The notes beneath the pieces are model-generated. The model was not told where the DNA came from, made no database searches, and worked only from the letters and a program-made list of their open reading frames with translations. This document shows positions 2,375 to 16,844 of a stretch of 64,000 nt of DNA, piece after piece; positions within the stretch are counted from its first letter, which is position 1, and each line of letters begins with the position of its first letter. The DNA is from Marinobacterium sediminicola. GTDB taxonomy: Bacteria; Pseudomonadota; Gammaproteobacteria; Pseudomonadales; Balneatricaceae. Made by a program: the position numbers and the translations under genes. The DNA lies in NCBI RefSeq assembly GCF_022343685.1, contig NZ_CP092123.1:1550001-1614000 (forward strand). The letters are read 5' to 3'.

Positions 2375-3007
2375 TCAGTCGATGCCTGTGATCTTGTGTG
2401 TCTGCAAGCTCAGGCGCCACTGAGGGTGTGCCATGCAGTAGTCGATGCAGCGTCGTGTATGTGCGCTCTGCAGGGGGCTGTCCAGTGGTTGCAGGAAAAA
2501 ATGGCGGAAATTCAGATGTGAGAAACGTTCCGGCGGTGCCGCACTTTGCGGAAAAACCAGCTTGAGTTCGTCGCCTTCTGTGATGATGACATCACTGCTG
2601 CCCTTGGGGCTGACGCAAATCCAATCGATACCGGACGGGAGCGGTTTGGTGCCGTTGGTTTCAATGGCAATTTCAAAACCCCGTGCATGCAGAGCATCGA
2701 TCAAGGGTGTATCCAGTTGAAGTGCAGGTTCTCCACCGGTGCAGACTACGTAGCGTTGGCCTTCATGAGTATCTGGCCATAAGCTTTCGATCCGTTCAGC
2801 CAGTGCTTCAGCGTCGCTGAACTTGCCACCGTTCTGGCCATCGGTGCCAATGAAATCGGTATCGCAGAAGTCACAAATAGCGTTGTGACGGTCCTGTTCT
2901 CGACCGCTCCACAGGTTACAGCCGGTGAAGCGGCAAAAGACAGAGGCGCGGCCGCTCTGAGCGCCTTCACCCTGCAATGTGTAGAAAATTTCTTTAACGC
3001 TGTACAT
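2375..3007 (-). CDS. queE: 7-carboxy-7-deazaguanine synthase
   Basis: Radical-SAM enzyme of 210 residues that converts 6-carboxytetrahydropterin to 7-carboxy-7-deazaguanine, the ring-contraction step of preQ0/queuosine synthesis. It opens with MYSVKEIFYTLQGEG, the family start. The cluster motif is C-x14-C-x2-C (CNLWSG...CDFC) instead of the canonical Cx3Cx2C, the variant known from proteobacterial QueE. GGEPALQ and the ETNGT strand are SAM-fold signatures. The ATG at 3007 is chosen because AGGAG lies five bases upstream and the protein then starts at the conserved N-terminus; the frame itself is open to 3316. A perfect FNR box lies about 46 bases upstream. Confidence 0.95.
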   Translation of the reverse strand: MYSVKEIFYTLQGEGAQSGRASVFCRFTGCNLWSGREQDRHNAICDFCDTDFIGTDGQNGGKFSDAEALAERIESLWPDTHEGQRYVVCTGGEPALQLDTPLIDALHARGFEIAIETNGTKPLPSGIDWICVSPKGSSDVIITEGDELKLVFPQSAAPPERFSHLNFRHFFLQPLDSPLQSAHTRRCIDYCMAHPQWRLSLQTHKITGID

Positions 3008-3046
3008 GCATGCTCCTGCTGATTGAGGCGTCAGTGTATCGGCAAT

Positions 3047-3060
3047 TTGATAATGATCAA
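3047..3060 (-). promoter_or_regulatory. FNR/Anr box upstream of queE
   Basis: TTGATAATGATCAA matches the FNR consensus TTGAT-N4-ATCAA at all ten fixed positions. It lies 40 bases upstream of the queE start. A plausible -10 (GATACA, read on the minus strand at 3040-3035) would put the box centre near -25, which suggests repression rather than class II activation. The box is seen directly; its role is inferred. Confidence 0.7.
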
Positions 3061-3170
3061 GCCGTGCAGGCAAAACAGGCTGATGCCGGACAAAATGAAC
3101 CGCAGTCGAGGGCAAGAGGGGATTGGCGGGTAAAGAACGCCAAGCGAATTGGCTCGGCGTTAGAGTGGGA

Positions 3171-4082
3171 TCAGGCTTCGGGTTCACCGCCAAAGGCGTC
3201 AAGCAATTCCGGCAGGAGGCGAGCATACTCCAGTCCCATGCGTGCCAATTCGGTATCCCGTGCGGCAAGCACATCTTCGGGAGTATCGGCATCCAGTTGC
3301 TCGCGATATTCGTCACTGAGGCGAAGTCGATGCAGGCTCAGGTCTTCATGAAGTACAAAGCGAATCTGCTGCTGCCAGTCGAGCGCGAGCCTTTTGACGA
3401 GCATACCGGCACTCAGATGAGCACTGATTTCATCACATAGCAGGTCCTGACCTTTGGCACTGATCTTACTGCCTTCGGTCATCGGGTCACGCAATTCGCA
3501 TTCATCTTCCAGAGCCCAGCCTTGCGGCATAGCCTCTCCCTGCAACCATGACGTCATCACTTTATCGGCTGAGATGCAGGTCTGGGGCAGTTTGACGATC
3601 AGTGAGCCCAAGGCCTCACGCAGTTGATTGAGGAGCTCTTCGGCGCGCTTGTGACTGGATGCATTGACGACAATCCACCCTTGCTGGGGCATCAGCACGG
3701 CTTCAGTGCGTCGACGCCGAGTAAAACTGCGCGGCAGCAAATCCATGATGACGTCATCCTTGAGCTGTAACTTCTCCTTGCGATAGACCTTGCGCGACTG
3801 CTCGGCTTCGATCAGTGCAACTTTTTCGTCAAGTTGTTCGCGAACGACACTGGCGGGGAGGATCCGCTCCTCCTGCATCAGGTTGACCAGCAGAAAACCG
3901 TTGCTGCTGAATACCAGCATGTCTTCTGCTTCTGAAACTGGACAGCCCCAGCCGCTCCGGCTCATTTCCTGGCTGCCGCAGGGCGTGAACGGATGCGCGC
4001 TGAGAGCTTGTTCAAGGTGCTCTTGAGTCAGGCCGGCAGGGGGATCAAAGCGGTAGAAAATAAGGTTTCGAAACCAGAGCAT
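3171..4082 (-). CDS. rdgC: Recombination-associated protein RdgC
   Basis: Ring-shaped, nucleoid-associated DNA-binding protein that modulates RecA activity; 303 residues, the normal family length. The N-terminal MLWFRNLIFYRF and the internal LPRSFTRRRRTEAV region near residue 115 are characteristic of RdgC. The ATG at 4082 is preferred because GGGAG lies six bases upstream; a further in-frame TTG four codons earlier would overlap that ribosome site. It is transcribed alone, with about 160 bases to queE downstream on the same strand. Confidence 0.95.
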   Translation of the reverse strand: MLWFRNLIFYRFDPPAGLTQEHLEQALSAHPFTPCGSQEMSRSGWGCPVSEAEDMLVFSSNGFLLVNLMQEERILPASVVREQLDEKVALIEAEQSRKVYRKEKLQLKDDVIMDLLPRSFTRRRRTEAVLMPQQGWIVVNASSHKRAEELLNQLREALGSLIVKLPQTCISADKVMTSWLQGEAMPQGWALEDECELRDPMTEGSKISAKGQDLLCDEISAHLSAGMLVKRLALDWQQQIRFVLHEDLSLHRLRLSDEYREQLDADTPEDVLAARDTELARMGLEYARLLPELLDAFGGEPEA

Positions 4083-4145
4083 GATGTCTCCCAAAAAAAT
4101 GTCATTTGCTGAGCATGGGGATTCTAACGTGGCTGGCGCTCATGT

Positions 4146-4598
4146 TCACTGAGAAGCGTCGACGAGGGCTCTGTCGATCGCCTGATCGAGATAGTATCCG
4201 TAAAACTCGGTTGAACTGATGCCCACCAGCGGCTTATCCAATACATCCCCATCAAGGTCCAGCATCAAAACACTGGGAAAGAGGCTGACGCCATAACGAT
4301 CTGCCAGAGTCTTGTGGCTAACGCTGTTGCCATTTTGGTCCACCACCTCACCACCCATGCCAACTTTCAGCTCGCGCACAATGAGCTCGTCCCTTTGCCG
4401 GTTGTGCAATGGCAGCAGAAAATCGCTTCGTACAGTGTCGCAGTAGGGGCAATCAGGCTGTGAAAACATGAGCACCAGCAGTGTGTTGGCTGGATAGGAT
4501 TCGCGCAGGGCTGCAAGGCCTGTAAATGGCGATAGTGCTTCGCTGGCCCTGCAGGGAGCGCAAAGCAACAAAAAAAACAGGATGGCAATCGGCTTCAT
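4146..4598 (-). CDS. Exported thioredoxin-fold protein (SoxW-like)
   Basis: 150-residue protein with an N-terminal signal peptide (MKPIAILFFLLLCAPCRA) and a thioredoxin fold whose active site is C50-P-Y-C53 in SQPDCPYC. The cis-proline loop appears as SLFPSVLMLD near residue 107. It is therefore a periplasmic thiol:disulfide protein, reminiscent of SoxW and other thioredoxin_2 proteins, and may reduce or isomerise periplasmic cysteines. The spacing FxQPDCPYC is closer to DsbC/SoxW than to cytoplasmic thioredoxin. A GGGAGGAG ribosome site precedes the ATG. The partner protein is not evident from its neighbours rdgC and apt. Confidence 0.75.
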   Translation of the reverse strand: MKPIAILFFLLLCAPCRASEALSPFTGLAALRESYPANTLLVLMFSQPDCPYCDTVRSDFLLPLHNRQRDELIVRELKVGMGGEVVDQNGNSVSHKTLADRYGVSLFPSVLMLDLDGDVLDKPLVGISSTEFYGYYLDQAIDRALVDASQ

Positions 4599-4722
4599 GG
4601 CAGCTCCTCCCTGACCATGCCTATTGGAGTAGGTAGCTGATCAGTATACCTGTGATATAGGTCTGCAGTCGCTGGCAGATACGCGGAAGCTCAGTGTGAG
4701 GCTGGCAGTTTGTTGGGCTTGA

Positions 4723-4762
4723 GGTTCAGGCTGTGAATCCAGGTCTGGCACAAGCCTGAACC
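4723..4762. repeat. 10-bp inverted repeat downstream of apt
   Basis: GGTTCAGGCT (4723-4732) is repeated as AGCCTGAACC (4753-4762) with a 20-base loop. On the minus strand it lies about 40 bases after the apt stop but has no T-run, so it may be an mRNA 3' stabiliser or a Rho-type end rather than an intrinsic terminator. Confidence 0.35.
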
Positions 4763-4803
4763 ATCAAATAGGGCAGCACAAATGAAGAGGTCTGTCCCTT
4801 GGA

Positions 4804-5345
4804 TCAGAGGCCTTCATAAGCCAGCAGGGAGTAGACGGGGATGCCTGCTTCCTGAATGCGGGTAGAGCCCTGCAGGTCCGGCAGGTCAATCAGGGCAGCG
4901 GCTTCAATAACTTCAGCACCGAGCTTCTTGATCAGGGTGCAAGCTGCCAGCAATGTGCCACCAGTCGCTATCAAGTCATCAAACAGAAGGACGCGATCAC
5001 CTGTTGTAACTGCGTCGGTCTGCATTTCAACGGCGGAAGTGCCGTATTCAAGCGTGTATTCCTGGTGGATGGTTTCACCCGGAAGCTTGCCTTTCTTGCG
5101 CACCAGAACCAGTGGCAGATTGAGCTGATATGCCATGATAGCGCCGAAAAGAAAGCCACGTGCATCGATACAGGCAATATGAGTAATGTCACTGTCTATG
5201 TAGCGCTGAATGAAGCATCGGAAACCATGCGCATTGCCTTGGGATCCTTGAAGATCGGTGTAACATCGCGAAACACGACTCCAGGTTCCGGCCAGTCCTC
5301 AAGCGAACGGATCACGGATTTGACATAGAATTCATCGTAGGACAT
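4804..5345 (-). pseudogene. apt: Adenine phosphoribosyltransferase, frameshifted
   Basis: Adenine phosphoribosyltransferase salvages adenine to AMP with PRPP. Reading from the ATG at 5345 (ribosome site GGGAG eight bases upstream) gives a normal Apt N-terminus, MSYDEFYVKSVIRSLEDWPE through MRMVSDA, and then a stop after about eight wrong codons. The correct frame resumes at FIQRYIDSDITHIACIDARG and runs to 4804, including the PRPP-loop LLFDDLIATGGTL and the adenine-binding ARGFLFG. One base is missing near 5213-5217 relative to a 180-residue intact protein. As written, the gene yields only a short fragment or a 110-residue piece from an internal ATG at 5136. The cause may be a genuine deletion or a sequencing error. 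Confidence 0.85.
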
Positions 5346-5370
5346 TCGGTAACTCCCAGTTGGCGCTCAA

Positions 5371-5412
5371 TTGATATAACTCAATGCCGCAGTGACGGAA
5401 TACAGGTGTAAT
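5371..5412 (+). promoter_or_regulatory. Candidate Anr-activated promoter (FNR box plus -10)
   Basis: TTGATATAACTCAA (5371-5384) matches the FNR consensus at nine of ten positions. A -10-like TGTAAT (5407-5412) lies with its centre 32 bases from the box centre, the same spacing as at the hemN promoter in this window. This predicts class II activation and a plus-strand start near 5419. On the minus strand the same geometry would start inside apt, so the plus direction is favoured. Confidence 0.5.
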
Positions 5413-5418
5413 GCAGGG

Positions 5419-5495
5419 GTTGGGTTACACATTGAGATGGCTACTTCATTGTGCAACTTGGGACGTAGCTTCACACGAAGCTACGTCTTTTTTTA
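5419..5495 (+). ncRNA. Candidate Anr-dependent small RNA (~77 nt)
   Basis: The predicted start near 5419 and the perfect intrinsic terminator ending at 5495 define a transcript of about 77 nt running opposite to both flanking genes (apt and anr are on the minus strand). No open reading frame of note lies within it. Because no plus-strand gene precedes the terminator, a noncoding RNA is the simplest explanation. FNR-family control of a small RNA has precedents in E. coli FnrS and P. aeruginosa PhrS; there is no sequence similarity that I can recognise. The transcript itself is inferred. Confidence 0.45.
5462..5495 (+). terminator. Strong intrinsic terminator, plus strand
   Basis: GACGTAGCTTC (5462-5472) pairs perfectly with GAAGCTACGTC (5477-5487) around an ACAC loop, followed by eight T. 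The T-run is only on the plus strand side, so it cannot serve the minus-strand genes on either side. Confidence 0.85.
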
Positions 5496-5540
5496 TTCGG
5501 GCGGGTGCTGTGCTTAACCAATGTGGACGGCTCTCGGTGC

Positions 5541-6317
5541 TCAGGAAGTAGATTGTTCCTGATGAGTGGGACACTCGCCATCACGGGATTCGCCAGACAG
5601 GCGATACATCTCTTCAAGATTGGTCAGTTCGACCTCTTTGCCGTCAACGCGCATCAACTCCATCTTTTGAAAGCGAGTAAAAATACGGCTGACCGTTTCC
5701 ACGGCGAGGCCAAGGTAGTTGCCAATTTCATTGCGGGACATGGACAGACGGAAGTTCGAAGCCGAGTAGCCCCGTGCCTTGAACCGCTGAGAGAGCTTGA
5801 GCAGGAAGGTCGCAACACGCTGTTCAGCGTTTTTCTTGGACAGCAACAGCATCATCTGCTGATCATCACGCAACTCTTTGCTCATGCTGCGCAACATCTG
5901 GCGACGCAGCTCGGGCATTTGCCCTGAAAGCTCGTCAAGACGCTCAAACGGAATTTCGCAAACGGTAGTGGTTTCCAGCACTTTAGCGGACATCGGATAG
6001 GTTTCAGCGTCATAACCGCTTAGACCTACGAGCTCGCCGGGGAAATAAAAGCCGGTGATCTGCTCCTCACCTTCGTTTGTCAGCGTGTAACTCTTGATCG
6101 TGCCCGCGCGAATTGCAAAAACCGAGCTGAACGGCTCGCCCTGGTGGAACAGGTGTTCACCTTTTTTCAGTGGTCGACTTTTTTCGATGATGTCATCCAG
6201 ACGGTCGATGTCGGTCAGGTCCAGTGAGACAGGCAGGCAGAGAGAACTCAGGCTGCAGGTCTTGCAGTGTACCTGGGACAGGCTATGTAGCTTTCCTTGA
6301 TTTTTGCAGTCGGCCAT
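5541..6317 (-). CDS. anr: FNR/Anr family oxygen-sensing transcription regulator
   Basis: 258-residue Crp/Fnr-family regulator that binds an oxygen-labile [4Fe-4S] cluster and activates or represses anaerobic and microaerobic genes. The four cluster ligands are visible: C18, C21 and C27 (C-x2-C-x5-C) and C120. A cyclic-nucleotide-binding-like beta roll (residues ~35-135) and a C-terminal helix-turn-helix follow; the recognition helix carries ETVSR, the E-SR residues that read TTGAT half sites. The ATG at 6317 has AAGGAT seven bases upstream; the frame is open to 6374 but those codons lack a ribosome site. Located between apt and hemN as in pseudomonads. The FNR boxes in this window are its likely targets. 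Confidence 0.95.
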
Positions 6318-6393
6318 GAGGGCATCCTTTGGTTGGTTAGTCACACGATGGCTATACGCCGCATTATGTAACATTTACCCTCGGGGGTGAAGC

Positions 6394-6415
6394 GAAAGGC
6401 CCGTGAACCGGGCCT
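6394..6415 (-). terminator. Probable terminator after hemN
   Basis: AGGCCCG (6397-6403) and CGGGCCT (6409-6415) form a 7-bp GC-rich stem with a 5-base loop just after the hemN stop. On the minus strand it is followed by a short TTT, so termination may be partial. Confidence 0.5.
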
Positions 6416-6420
6416 CGACT

Positions 6421-7812
6421 TTAGATGATGCGTGAGAAATTCTGAGAGTGTTGCTTTTTGGGGATATAAGCATCAAACGCCATGCAGATGCGACGAATGA
6501 GCAGGCGGCCTGCAGGGGTTACTTCGATTCCGGTTGGCGACAGATGGACCAGACCGTCGGAATTAAACTGCAGCAGTTCCTCTTGTTCATCAGCAAAATA
6601 CTGGTCAAAGTCGATGTCGAAACGCTGTTCGACGGCCTTTTTATCCAGCTTGAACTGGCAGATCAGCTCGGTGATTACCGCGCGACGGATATGGTCATCG
6701 AAATTCAGTTCTACACCACGCTTGACCGCATGCTGCTGTTGCAGCACGGCCTGGCTATAAGCCGAGATGTCGTGTTCATTCTGATAATAGACATTACCGA
6801 TTTGGCTGATCGCCGAGACTCCCATGGCCACAAGGTCGCAGTCGGCATGTGTGGTATAGCCCTGGAAGTTGCGATGCAACTTGCCACTTTGCTGCGCTAT
6901 GGCCAATTCATCGTCAGGCTTGGCAAAATGATCCATGCCAATGTAGACATAGCCTGCGTCCAGCAGTCTGTTGATACTGTTTTGCAGTATGGCCAGCTTC
7001 TCTTCAGCAGAAGGCAGGTCTTCGGCGCGTATATGCTTCTGTGAACGGAAGCGGTCAGGCAAGTGAGCATAATTGAAGACCGACAGGCGGTCAGGGCTCA
7101 TTGCAATGACGGTATCAAGGGTCTCTTCGAAGCTCTGCTCTGTCTGGTGCGGAAGACCATAGATGAGGTCCATGTTGATCGACTTGAATCCCAGCTCGCG
7201 GGAACGATCCAGAACGGCGCGGGTCTGTTCGGTTGGCTGAACACGATTGACTGCCTCCTGAACTTTCAGATTAACATCCTGTACGCCAAGACTGATGCGG
7301 TTGAAGCCGATTTCCCGCAGGACACCCAGAGTGTCATGACCTGCCTCACGGGGGTCGATCTCGATGGAATAGTCACCGAGGTCGTCATCGCGCAAATTGA
7401 AATTGCGACGCAGGGCCGCCATCAGTTCCCGCATCTGTTCGTCACTGATGAACGTAGGAGTACCGCCGCCCCAATGAAGCTGATTGACGGTTCGGTCTCC
7501 ACGATACCACTGCGAAAGCTGATCCATCTCCTGATACAGGGTGTCGAGGTAGGGTTGGGCTTTCTTGCGGTTACGGGTGATCACCTTGTTACAGGCACAG
7601 TAATAACAGACATGTGCACAGAAAGGGATGTGAACATACAGCGACAATGGCGCATTTACGTCGGCGCTCTCTCTTCCGGCGGCGATCAGCTGGTCAGCGG
7701 TAAGACCCGAGTCAAACTGAATGGCGGTCGGGTAGGAGGTATAGCGAGGGCCGGCAAGGTCATAACGACGAATAAGATCAAGATCCCAGCTGACATTGCT
7801 CTGTTGAGTCAC
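6421..7812 (-). CDS. hemN: Oxygen-independent coproporphyrinogen III oxidase
   Basis: Radical-SAM enzyme of 463 residues that decarboxylates coproporphyrinogen III to protoporphyrinogen IX without oxygen in haem synthesis. The cluster ligands C65-x3-C69-x2-C72 are followed by C74, as in E. coli HemN. WGGGTPTF (SAM binding), the N-terminal YDLAGPRYTSYPTA and the C-terminal helical domain are all present, and the length is standard. It starts at GTG 7812 with GAGGTG six bases upstream. Its promoter carries a perfect FNR box, consistent with induction when oxygen falls and haem is needed for the cbb3 oxidase encoded upstream. Confidence 0.97.
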   Translation of the reverse strand: MTQQSNVSWDLDLIRRYDLAGPRYTSYPTAIQFDSGLTADQLIAAGRESADVNAPLSLYVHIPFCAHVCYYCACNKVITRNRKKAQPYLDTLYQEMDQLSQWYRGDRTVNQLHWGGGTPTFISDEQMRELMAALRRNFNLRDDDLGDYSIEIDPREAGHDTLGVLREIGFNRISLGVQDVNLKVQEAVNRVQPTEQTRAVLDRSRELGFKSINMDLIYGLPHQTEQSFEETLDTVIAMSPDRLSVFNYAHLPDRFRSQKHIRAEDLPSAEEKLAILQNSINRLLDAGYVYIGMDHFAKPDDELAIAQQSGKLHRNFQGYTTHADCDLVAMGVSAISQIGNVYYQNEHDISAYSQAVLQQQHAVKRGVELNFDDHIRRAVITELICQFKLDKKAVEQRFDIDFDQYFADEQEELLQFNSDGLVHLSPTGIEVTPAGRLLIRRICMAFDAYIPKKQHSQNFSRII

Positions 7813-7844
7813 AACTACACCTCACGGATAAAATCAAAGGGGGC

Positions 7845-7886
7845 ATTATAGGCTGTGGGCGAACACAGGGGCTTGATAAGTATCAA
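7845..7886 (-). promoter_or_regulatory. hemN promoter with perfect FNR/Anr box
   Basis: TTGATAAGTATCAA (7873-7886) is a perfect FNR box. A consensus -10 TATAAT (minus strand, 7850-7845) lies 32 bases away centre to centre, which is class II geometry with a start near 7838 and a 5' leader of about 26 bases before the hemN GTG. The box overlaps the stop codon of the upstream TauE-like gene. Confidence 0.85.
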
Positions 7887-8560
7887 GCGTGCGGCAGCCA
7901 TAGCTGCCATGGCAAGGTTGCGAGGCCAAACAGCATGACAAGAATACCGGCACCCCTGCGAACGCCGTTCTGTTGCATCAACTGACGCAGCTGCCGAGCA
8001 AGCAGTGCAGTCGTCATCATTGCCGGAAGGGTTCCCAGACCAAACATCAGCATCAGGGTTGCACTGCCTGTCGGCCCGTCACTGATGCTGCCTGCCCAAA
8101 TCAGGGTGGTATATACCAGGCCGCAGGGCAGCCAGCCCCAGAGTCCACCAAGCGCCAAAGACCTGGGCAGAGTATTGGCAGGCAGGAGCGACCGGCTGAT
8201 GGGCTGAATGCGCTTCCAAAGATGCCCGCCCAAACGCTCGAGATAGGCAGCACCTTGCCACCATCCAGCGATATACAATCCGGTGACAACCATGATCAGT
8301 GCGGCCAAGGTCCTGAGTCCGATTGTCAGTTCAGGGCTACTGGCCAGTGATTGCCCCAGGAAGCCCATCAACACACCAGCAATCATGTAGCTGAATACGC
8401 GACCAAGATTGAATGCCACCAGCAGAGGCAAGCCTCCGGACCCGGCTGCCCCACGACTCATGGCAACGCTACCGGCGATACCGCCACACATGCCGACACA
8501 ATGTGTACTGCCGGCGAGCCCAAACAGCAGGGCTGAAAGGATGTGAGTCGGGTCAATCAA
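7883..8560 (-). CDS. TauE/SafE-like membrane protein of the cbb3 oxidase cluster
   Basis: 225-residue protein with about six membrane helices and the N-terminal GLAGSTHCVGMCGG motif of the sulfite-exporter TauE/SafE-like family that accompanies ccoS in many proteobacteria. In several species this family affects copper handling and cbb3 oxidase maturation, and the conserved H-C-x3-C could bind metal; I infer a maturation role from position. The only usable start is TTG at 8560: an in-frame stop lies two codons upstream and the next ATG is about 23 codons inside, past the conserved N-terminus. TTG overlaps the ccoS stop (TTGA), so translation is probably coupled. Confidence 0.8.
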   Translation of the reverse strand: MIDPTHILSALLFGLAGSTHCVGMCGGIAGSVAMSRGAAGSGGLPLLVAFNLGRVFSYMIAGVLMGFLGQSLASSPELTIGLRTLAALIMVVTGLYIAGWWQGAAYLERLGGHLWKRIQPISRSLLPANTLPRSLALGGLWGWLPCGLVYTTLIWAGSISDGPTGSATLMLMFGLGTLPAMMTTALLARQLRQLMQQNGVRRGAGILVMLFGLATLPWQLWLPHA

Positions 8561-8757
8561 GACTTATGATCCTGCTTGTCATCCTTGGCTGGGCGAGCGT
8601 CGTCCGGGATCAGCTGTTCATCATCCTCAAAAAGAATCCGGTGCGCAGGCGATTCGAGATCATCAAACTGGCCTTGTCGGACACTCCAGAAAAAAGCCCA
8701 GAGTGCGACACTGACCAGTATGATGGCGATTGGAATCAACAGGTAGATGATTTCCAT
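8557..8757 (-). CDS. ccoS: cbb3-type oxidase assembly protein CcoS
   Basis: Small (66-residue) membrane protein with one N-terminal helix (IIYLLIPIAIILVSVALWAFFW) and the conserved GQFDDLESPAHRILF segment that defines CcoS. CcoS is needed for insertion of haem b and copper into the cbb3 catalytic subunit. The ATG has GGGAG upstream, starts three bases after the ccoI stop, and its own stop overlaps the start of the TauE-like gene, so ccoI-ccoS-tauE read as one translationally coupled unit. Confidence 0.95.
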   Translation of the reverse strand: MEIIYLLIPIAIILVSVALWAFFWSVRQGQFDDLESPAHRILFEDDEQLIPDDARPAKDDKQDHKS

Positions 8758-8760
8758 TAA

Positions 8761-11214
8761 TTACTCCCGGAGCTTGCGACGAATCCGTGGCAGGCGAGAT
8801 AAACGCATGGCGTTGCCAACCACGATCAAAGAACTTGCGGACATGCCGACTGCTGCCATGTATGGGGCAATAAACCCCATAGCGGCAAGCGGCAGGGCGA
8901 CAAGGTTATACAACAGTGCCCACGACAGGTTTTCACGAATCACCATGCGTGTCTTCCGAGCTACCATGAGCGCCAGTGCGAGCCTTTCCAGTTCGCTTGA
9001 AATCAGAACGGCGTCGGCACTGGTTTTGGCAAGATCAGTGGCAGATCCCATGGCAATGGAAGTACGTGCACCTGCGAGTACAGGAATATCATTGATTCCA
9101 TCACCGACCATGATCACGCTGGCACCATTGCTCTGCAGTTCATTTATATAGGCCAGTTTCTGGTCAGGAGAAACGCCCTGTTTGACGGTCTCTATACCAA
9201 GCTCATCAGCAACACGAGCCGCTGCAGATGAGTCATCTCCGGTTAGCATGCCAACCTTGAGCCCGAGACGCTTTAATACGTTGAGGGTAAAAGCGGCATC
9301 CTTTCGAATTTGGTCATCAAGAGCGAACCAGGCCAAAGGCCCCTGGTCATCAGACAGCAGAAGCCATTGCCGTTCATGGTCAGGCTGATCTGGCGTGACA
9401 CCCTGATACAGCTCAGCCGCATAACTGGGCTTGCCAATGCGGTAGCGTACTCCTTCTACTTCACCCTCAACCCCGGCATTAACCTTTACGCGGGTGTTGA
9501 CGGACGGAATCTGGAAGTATGGATGAAATGCACGCGCAATGGGGTGCTCCGAAGCCTGTTCCAATGCGGCAGCAATAGAGTAGGGGTTGATGCTATTAAG
9601 TTCACGTGCCGGCTGCATCTGCTGAATACTGAGATTACCCTCAGTCAAAGTGCCGGTTTTATCGAAAATAATGTGGGTGGCGCTGGCCAGTCCTTCCAGT
9701 ACGTGGCCTCGGGTAATCAATAAACCCTGCTGGCGCAAGGTGCCCGTTGCTGCTGTCAGAGCGGTGGGTGTTGCCAGGCCCAGCGCGCAGGGACAGGTCA
9801 CGACCAGCACAGAAAGGGTTATCCAGAATGCATCCTCTGGTGATATGAAATACCAGCTGCCAGCAACAGTCGCAGAGGTTATCAGAACTGCAAGCACAAA
9901 GTAGCGTGCAACACGATCCGCAATGCGAGCGGTAACAGGTTTTTCTGCATGCGCACGGTCAAGCAGGCCGACTATGGCTGAAAGGCGCGTATTAGGTCCG
10001 ACATCGGTGATTCGAATCTTCAGCGGATGCTCAACATTGATGGTACCGCCGACAACAGGATCGTCGATGTTTTTGCTGATTGGCAGGTATTCTCCGGTCA
10101 AGGCTGACTCATCGACAGCACTGCTGCCTTCTAGAATGATGCCATCCGCAGGTAATGTGTGGCCGGGCCTAACCAGAACCACGTCGCCAGGTTTGAGTTC
10201 GGTGGCCGGAACCATTTTTTCTCGGCCCTCTTCCAGTAGGGTGGCACTGGCCGGAAGAAGATCAAGCAATGCGTTCCCCGCCTTGCCCGTGCGATGACGA
10301 GCCTGCATCTCAATGTAGCGACCAATGAGCAGGAAAAAGGTGAACATGGTGACCGAATCGAAATAGACTTCGCCGGTATTCATGATCGTCGCCCAGACAC
10401 TGGCAAGATAGGCGCCACCAATGGCAATCGATACAGGAACATCCATGCTCAACTGACGAGTCTTCAGGTCTCTGAAAGCCGTCAGGAAAAAGGGTCGAGC
10501 TGAATAAAGGACGACAGGAGTGGCAAGAATCAGGCTGCTCCAGCGAATGAACTCGACGAATCGAGCTTCCATATCCTGAAGTGCACCAGCATACAGGGCG
10601 ATTGCCATCATCATGACCTGCATCATGCCGACACCGGCAACGCCGAGGCGCCTGATCGCGCGCTTATTCTCCTGCTCCAGCAGCTGCTCTTCACGGTTTG
10701 GGTGGAACGGATGGGCCTTGTACCCTATGCGAAGCACCTCTCCGAATAACTTGCTGAGCTTGGTTTGGCTGGGGTCCCAGACTAAACGAGCGCGATGGTT
10801 GGTCATGTTGACGCTGAACTGGGAAACGCCTGGCTGCTGGCTGAGGTGGTGCTCAAGGAGCCAGACACAAGCAGCGCAGGTAATGCCTTCGATAACCAGC
10901 ATGGCTTCGGCTTGCTCATCGCCGGTGTGGCGAACGAACTCGGCCTGGATGGCTTCAGAATCATAGAGCGCCAACTCATCTGCCAGGTGGGCCTCACTGC
11001 TGATGCGTGAGTCCATAGTAGTCGCCGAGGCGTCGCGATGGCGGTAGAAACCATCCAGCCCGCCATCAACAATGGTCTGTGCGACTGCCTGGCAGCCGGG
11101 ACAGCACATCGATTTTTGTTCACCACCAATGATGGTGGTGTAATCAGTACCTGGTGGGACGGGCAGCCCGCAGTGGAAGCAGGGTGCCAATGCCTGTGTC
11201 CTTTGAACGCTCAT
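8761..11214 (-). CDS. ccoI: Copper-exporting P1B-type ATPase for cbb3 oxidase assembly
   Basis: 817-residue heavy-metal P-type ATPase (CcoI/FixI/CopA2 group) that moves Cu(I) to the periplasm for the CuB centre of cbb3 oxidase. Visible are an N-terminal extra Cys region (C12-x2-C15 and CCPGC at 37-41), a metal-binding TCAAC at 113-116, the transmembrane CPC at 474-476, the phosphorylation site DKTGT at 518, and a GDGIND hinge near residue 700. The N-terminal Cys cluster is typical of FixI rather than CopA. It begins shortly after the ccoH stop and is followed by ccoS. Confidence 0.95.
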   Translation of the reverse strand: MSVQRTQALAPCFHCGLPVPPGTDYTTIIGGEQKSMCCPGCQAVAQTIVDGGLDGFYRHRDASATTMDSRISSEAHLADELALYDSEAIQAEFVRHTGDEQAEAMLVIEGITCAACVWLLEHHLSQQPGVSQFSVNMTNHRARLVWDPSQTKLSKLFGEVLRIGYKAHPFHPNREEQLLEQENKRAIRRLGVAGVGMMQVMMMAIALYAGALQDMEARFVEFIRWSSLILATPVVLYSARPFFLTAFRDLKTRQLSMDVPVSIAIGGAYLASVWATIMNTGEVYFDSVTMFTFFLLIGRYIEMQARHRTGKAGNALLDLLPASATLLEEGREKMVPATELKPGDVVLVRPGHTLPADGIILEGSSAVDESALTGEYLPISKNIDDPVVGGTINVEHPLKIRITDVGPNTRLSAIVGLLDRAHAEKPVTARIADRVARYFVLAVLITSATVAGSWYFISPEDAFWITLSVLVVTCPCALGLATPTALTAATGTLRQQGLLITRGHVLEGLASATHIIFDKTGTLTEGNLSIQQMQPARELNSINPYSIAAALEQASEHPIARAFHPYFQIPSVNTRVKVNAGVEGEVEGVRYRIGKPSYAAELYQGVTPDQPDHERQWLLLSDDQGPLAWFALDDQIRKDAAFTLNVLKRLGLKVGMLTGDDSSAAARVADELGIETVKQGVSPDQKLAYINELQSNGASVIMVGDGINDIPVLAGARTSIAMGSATDLAKTSADAVLISSELERLALALMVARKTRMVIRENLSWALLYNLVALPLAAMGFIAPYMAAVGMSASSLIVVGNAMRLSRLPRIRRKLRE

Positions 11215-16804: not shown

Positions 16805-16844
16805 TTTATAATTCCGTTATCTGGATTTGGTTGATATGGATCAA
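16805..16844 (-). promoter_or_regulatory. ccoNOQP promoter with perfect FNR/Anr box
   Basis: TTGATATGGATCAA (16831-16844) is a perfect FNR box. A -10 TATAAA (minus strand 16810-16805) is 30 bases away centre to centre, giving class II geometry and a start near 16797. Low oxygen should therefore switch on the high-affinity oxidase through Anr. Confidence 0.8.

Follow-up and report, generated by a model that had tools for sequence, protein, structure and literature searches.

We consider the evidence evenly balanced for the reading that positions 5371 to 5494 of the Marinobacterium sediminicola genome segment analyzed here are an Anr-activated small-RNA gene whose RNA pairs with the anr mRNA, more likely in negative feedback. 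The segment, referred to as the window, is a 64-kb stretch of the single-contig, 3.55-Mb genome. We also lean, slightly, toward regarding the RNA as one of an undescribed family of the Marinobacterium-Neptuniibacter-Neptunomonas group, which would be driven by Anr, lie behind the gene for its own sensor, and pair with the 5' end of that gene's mRNA; the RNA and its pairing motif would be inherited jointly and apparently also lost jointly. The features of the RNA gene and its two neighbors are as follows.

5371 to 5384, plus strand: putative Anr/FNR box TTGATATAACTCAA, centered at -41.5 if +1 is position 5419.
5407 to 5412, plus strand: -10 element TGTAAT, seen in the sequence.
5419 to 5494, plus strand: predicted small RNA of ca. 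76 nt, from a covariance model match and an alignment of 33 sequences.
5419 to 5457, plus strand: conserved 5' hairpin GUUGGGUUACACAUUGAGAUGGCUACUUCAUUGUGCAAC, from the same alignment.
5437 to 5444, plus strand: exposed loop AUGGCUAC, the predicted first contact with the anr mRNA.
5462 to 5494, plus strand: intrinsic terminator, an 11-bp stem and seven T.
5541 to 6317, minus strand: anr, gene for the predicted activator and the predicted target, recognized from Anr relatives.
4804 to 5345, minus strand: apt, the downstream neighbor, with a reading frame that is broken in M. sediminicola.

The box at 5371 to 5384 matches 9 of 10 positions of TTGATNNNNATCAA, which we take to be the FNR box consensus and used for scoring; this is the match that the original prediction had reported. 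Such a box alone is weak evidence because the window holds eight sites with one mismatch or none, compared with 2.6 expected from shuffled sequence. Perfect boxes occur three times (3047 to 3060, 7873 to 7886, and 16831 to 16844), and the copy at 7873 precedes hemN. It is conservation that raises the signals of the RNA gene above chance, with the box, the -10 element, and the RNA start found in all 44 members that the covariance model detected in the family. The claim that the -10 element is spaced as in the hemN promoter (-10 TATAAT, with its box at 7873 to 7886) also held, both gaps being 22 bases when counted by eye. A scan of positions 5300 to 5600 found no -35/-10 pair of the sigma-70 type, which fits an activator-dependent promoter.

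The spacing of these elements is nearly fixed across the 44 members. The gap from box to -10 is 22 bases in 42 of them and 23 in two, and the -10 lies 6 bases (37 members) or 7 bases (7 members) from the RNA start, GUUGG. When the G of GUUGG is taken as +1, this spacing places the putative FNR site at -41.5 in 35 members and at -42.5 in the other 9. The distance from the box to apt varies widely among loci while the distance from the box to the -10 remains near-fixed, and therefore the box belongs with the RNA. All 44 boxes conform to TTGA..CAA, and all have C at position 10, where the FNR consensus has A. The second half-site reads CTCAA in 43 boxes and CGCAA in one, and never ATCAA; this half-site may tune affinity or select between related regulators. 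We infer from these arrangements that the RNA is transcribed and that its transcription depends on Anr and responds to oxygen.

The covariance model matched the M. sediminicola genome at 5419 to 5493 (E 6.1e-19). The RNA from 5419 to 5495 has a predicted folding energy of -30 kcal/mol (z -6.88), which none of 200 shuffled sequences equaled. Among the first 39 positions of the RNA, 35 are conserved in at least 90% of the 33 aligned sequences, and 21 of those are invariant; the first 13 nt are nearly so throughout. No two-sided change was found in any of the 10 consensus pairs of the 5' hairpin, and for this reason the case for its fold is built on energy and near-invariance. The loop AUGGCUAC is predicted to be exposed, with unpaired probabilities of 0.82 to 1.00. 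The terminator, GACGTAGCTTC-ACAC-GAAGCTACGTC, has the perfect 11-bp stem that was originally described (5462 to 5472 with 5477 to 5487), followed by seven T (5488 to 5494) rather than the eight then counted. No other terminator-like site occurs in 5300 to 5600, where 0.1 would be expected, compared with 15 such sites in 3000 to 9000, where 4.8 would be expected. Each of the 11 stem pairs shows a pair-preserving two-sided change in at least 1 of the 33 sequences, and the T run sits on the plus side across the aligned sequences. Comparative sequence evidence thus strongly supports a conserved plus-strand small-RNA gene with an Anr/FNR promoter of the class II type.

The alignment set comprised 35 loci in which the anr-apt intergenic region is at least about 150 bases long, from which L009 to L012 had been omitted as repeats of other loci. 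The element was present in 34 of the 35 and absent from the Pokkaliibacter locus (L058). L006, which is identical to L005, was dropped to give the 33-sequence alignment, from which the covariance model was built. The Nitrincola loci other than L044, as well as the Amphritea, Motiliproteus, and Pseudomonas loci that have apt next to anr, have a shorter intergenic stretch and lack the element.

Within the family, the model matched 44 of 116 genomes, in 8 of 16 genera and in a single copy each, and the carriers include Marinobacterium, Neptuniibacter, Neptunomonas, and Pontibacterium loci. All 44 members adjoin anr, which bears out the placement of the gene beside its own regulator; the exact core lies within 400 nt of anr in 42. 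The RNA has diverged in L130 and L133, yet there too it is located between anr and apt. Loss of the box and terminator in close relatives, which the original prediction had named as evidence against itself, was not seen, as the element is retained in all eight genomes from the genus. One further carrier, L215, with both box and -10, emerged from a search of 42 loci presumed to lack the RNA; the large-scale model searches ran stricter filters, and the family search missed it. L215 also has two palindromic repeats on the minus strand between anr and apt (ca. 1243 to 1400), which start with the first 10 bases of the RNA itself, GTTGGGTTAC, by chance or through common origin.

Beyond the family the RNA was rarely found. 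A sample of 293 genomes of the order gave eight matches, seven of them in the same family, and in a sample of 369 genomes of the class the sole match was the genome of M. sediminicola itself. A match in genome G210 of the order sample (E 6.4e-4) was attributed to chance: the stretches examined contain no anr, and by eye there is no box upstream. No Rfam 15 family reached its gathering score in the window, which upholds the earlier statement that no known homologue could be recognized. Identity with a known family was also rejected at E values up to 10, at which there were six weak, unrelated matches, mostly to the terminator hairpin and none to FnrS, for which Rfam presumably holds a model.

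The closest relatives of the Anr protein among named species are those of Marinobacterium iners, M. alkalitolerans, M. weihaiense, and M. halophilum. In the window and the 87 loci examined with it, apt adjoins anr in 80 cases. The apt frame of M. sediminicola, which begins at 5345 on the minus strand, ends after 49 codons, and the remainder is open only as 4804 to 5136; the break may be real or a sequencing error. We do not think that apt is part of the RNA circuit.

The original prediction had named no target. The one proposed here lies across anr from the RNA gene, in the 5' leader of the anr mRNA.

6363 to 6391, minus strand: predicted anr promoter (TTCACC, 17 bases, CATAAT), from a consensus scan.
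6332 to 6354, minus strand: predicted target within the 5' leader of anr, UAGCCAUCGUGUGAC (6354 to 6340) plus CCAAC (6336 to 6332), from duplex prediction.
6325 to 6330, minus strand: putative Shine-Dalgarno sequence AAAGGA of anr, adjoining the predicted target.

The loop AUGGCUAC is complementary to UAGCCAUC of the leader. In the leaders read, the complementarity to the loop and the 5' arm falls just after the anr -10, and the predicted pairing extends right up to the Shine-Dalgarno sequence. When both molecules are free to fold, the net gain of pairing for the window pair is 13.0 kcal/mol, which was matched by none of 200 shuffled leaders. Nine distinct sites in the 64-kb window surpass the anr leader in plain duplex energy, however, and thus the argument for the target rests on comparison between species.

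That comparison was made in several ways. In a ranking test, each RNA was paired with its own anr leader, and the strongest duplex was ranked against blocks of the same locus; L001, L006, L009 to L012, L016, and L056, which are mostly repeats, were left out. The anr leader placed among the top 5% of blocks at 21 of the 33 loci that have the RNA, compared with 2 of 48 loci without it, for which the window RNA was used. Shuffled RNAs reached the top 5% in 4 of 198 trials at loci with the RNA and 6 of 288 at loci without. Of 41 distinct sequences from loci with the RNA, 24 have the motif GTAGCC upstream of anr; it occurs in none of 49 from loci without and in 123 of 4,880 background stretches. 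The corresponding counts for TAGCC in the anr leaders were 28 of 41, 1 of 49, and 296 of 4,880. In the 25 leaders measured, TAGCC sits 7 to 11 nt past the anr -10. The table compiled for the Anr tree covers 45 leaders with the RNA, 29 of which contain TAGCC, and 36 without, none of which does. Genomes G064 and G074 have no RNA although their congeners carry it, and TAGCC is also missing from them. Carriers of the RNA and of the motif group together on the Anr tree, a crude tree on which counts of gains and losses are ambiguous, and therefore the motif and pairing counts are not independent.

Net pairing gave a similar separation. After L130 and four repeats were left out, 28 of 39 distinct pairs of the family reached z values of -2 or lower relative to shuffled leaders, whereas nine were above -1.5 (L089, L090, L092, L097, L104, L108, L110, L129, and L132). 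In a control run the same threshold was reached by 17 of 24 anr leaders with their own RNAs, compared with 2 of 25 stretches upstream of apt, 1 of 26 upstream of hemN, and 2 of 24 reverse-complemented anr leaders. When the window RNA was paired with 60 anr leaders whose loci lack the RNA, nine reached it, and seven of those nine are Pseudomonas records. Three Pseudomonas leaders (L077, L080, and L084) had z values of -3 or lower with no such RNA beside anr, a pairing that is probably due to chance.

In M. halophilum (L121) one loop change is matched in the leader, giving a 10-nt run compared with 8 for the window RNA, and it is only suggestive of intermolecular covariation. Other candidates were rejected: Nitrincola alkalilacustris (L132) has a changed loop and a 7-nt leader match but a z of -0.1 and no net gain; L133 has a changed loop and a z of -2.7, but on its leader the window RNA equals its own RNA in plain duplex energy; and in L122 and others the leader pairs better with the window RNA than with its own.

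The comparisons show that the complementarity to the anr leader is conserved, as is the layout of the RNA gene, and we infer that the two RNAs pair in cells and that the effect is repressive. The circuit that we propose would begin as oxygen falls, when Anr would bind the box near -41.5 and activate the RNA gene in class II fashion. The ca. 76-nt transcript would end at its own terminator, and its exposed loop would first meet UAGCCAUC, at the 5' end of the anr mRNA. Pairing would then extend along the 5' arm as far as the border of the anr ribosome site and most likely hinder ribosome entry or hasten decay of the mRNA, and the outcome would be negative feedback in which Anr limits its own synthesis through the RNA.

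The main rival on the role of the RNA is a wider, FnrS-like regulon, in which the Anr-activated RNA would use its invariant 5' end or its loop mainly to control other mRNAs and pairing with anr would be secondary. We consider this unlikely, while giving it real weight. The first 13 nt of the RNA are near-invariant although the match to the anr leader varies; pairing with anr would not require a 5' end as constant as this, and thus further targets are likely. The best candidate seen is a phoX-like gene of M. sediminicola itself, in which GTAACCCAAC (L170, 8244 to 8253), a perfect complement of the first 10 nt of the RNA, stands directly before the ribosome site; relative L187 has GTAACCCAA at the same place. 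Among perfect 9-mers near starts, this gene was the only match to the 5' arm within 15 bases of a start. In both loci read, L202 and L203, GTAACCCAACGG occurs at the infB start (position 1501), just ahead of the ribosome site, and infB is another possible target in the genus of those loci. The names phoX-like and infB are readings of the sequence. A pattern search had matches in 74 of 114 genomes, among them carriers of the RNA and genomes that lack it, and by eye yielded no site shared across genera, whereas the anr leader motif recurs across genera. A duplex-energy ranking of 794 predicted open reading frame starts (864 kb of the same genome) was not used; many of its top frames look spurious, and it placed the start of anr, called too far upstream, at rank 524.

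The main rival on the sign of the effect is a positive loop, in which pairing of the 5' end would protect the anr mRNA or open its start region and so raise Anr. This is a somewhat more doubtful possibility. When the window RNA and its anr leader are folded as a complex, pairing does not hide the Shine-Dalgarno bases, and the AUG opens further than it does in the mRNA by itself. This argues against simple blocking and makes the repressive sign a matter of judgment. There is also a precedent, as one report describes the small RNA ErsA of Pseudomonas aeruginosa as pairing with the anr mRNA and activating it (PMC8575079). However, the site predicted for ErsA in that report is within the coding region (+28 to +49), elsewhere than the site proposed here, and the pairing predicted here touches the edge of the Shine-Dalgarno sequence.

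An improbable alternative to pairing with the anr leader is that the anr transcript runs on toward apt, so that the RNA would act as its antisense or polymerases would collide. The genes are convergent, and a scan of the window found no terminator-like site in the anr-apt interval on the anr strand, so that the RNA may in part act as a cis-antisense, but this explanation leaves the complementarity to the anr 5' leader and the 39 near-invariant nucleotides unexplained. It is very improbable that there is no RNA at all and that the palindromic box, 25 bases from the apt start, regulates apt or that the stretch encodes a short peptide from the ATG frame of the window copy, as the box keeps its distance to the RNA -10 while its distance to apt varies widely, the terminator covaries, and the ATG is altered in L035, L036, L040, and L044.

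The proposed anr-pairing RNA shares individual traits with several known small RNAs. PhrS of P. aeruginosa, which the original prediction named along with FnrS, is an Anr-dependent RNA that is longer, is encoded at a different locus, and acts on pqsR; the RNA described here is likewise predicted to depend on Anr and differs in length, locus, and predicted target. To our knowledge, ErsA is neither Anr-driven nor encoded next to anr. The likeness to ErsA is in pairing with the anr mRNA, here predicted and in the leader.

FnrS of Escherichia coli is a small RNA that ends at its own terminator and has a class II FNR site at -41.5, and its targets include gpmA and mqo; it is a feature of the Enterobacteriaceae, with a proposed functional equivalent in Neisseria gonorrhoeae (PMC3032703). 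The RNA described here resembles FnrS in having its own terminator and a predicted FNR site at -41.5 (35 of 44 members). Unlike FnrS, it has no Rfam match, its gene adjoins the regulator gene, and its predicted target is the regulator mRNA. SicX of P. aeruginosa is an Anr-dependent, low-oxygen small RNA at PA1414 that acts on ubiUVT; the study that describes it found no homologues beyond P. aeruginosa (PMC10247376). Both RNAs are oxygen regulated and linked to Anr, in our case by prediction, and they differ in locus and distribution, a distinction made by description rather than by sequence. The nearest parallels in circuit design are Qrr-luxO of Vibrio (PMC4211561) and OmrA/B-ompR of E. coli (PMC7398697), in which an RNA made under the control of an activator pairs with the mRNA of that activator and lowers it. 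Here too there is a putative activator site at the RNA promoter (44 of 44 members) and complementarity to the activator mRNA (28 of 39 pairs), but the regulators and RNAs are others, the signal would be oxygen via Anr, and the loop is a prediction.

Among the papers listed in the literature searched, a scope that most subscription journals fall outside, titles and opening lines of abstracts pointed to no paper on this RNA and to no oxygen-responsive small RNA in this marine group. If the reading offered here is true, it adds an RNA of that kind to the group and supplies a compact feedback device of natural origin whose pairing site is mapped. FNR and Anr are main oxygen switches in many bacteria, and an RNA loop back onto the mRNA of the switch would shape the speed and extent of commitment to low-oxygen life.
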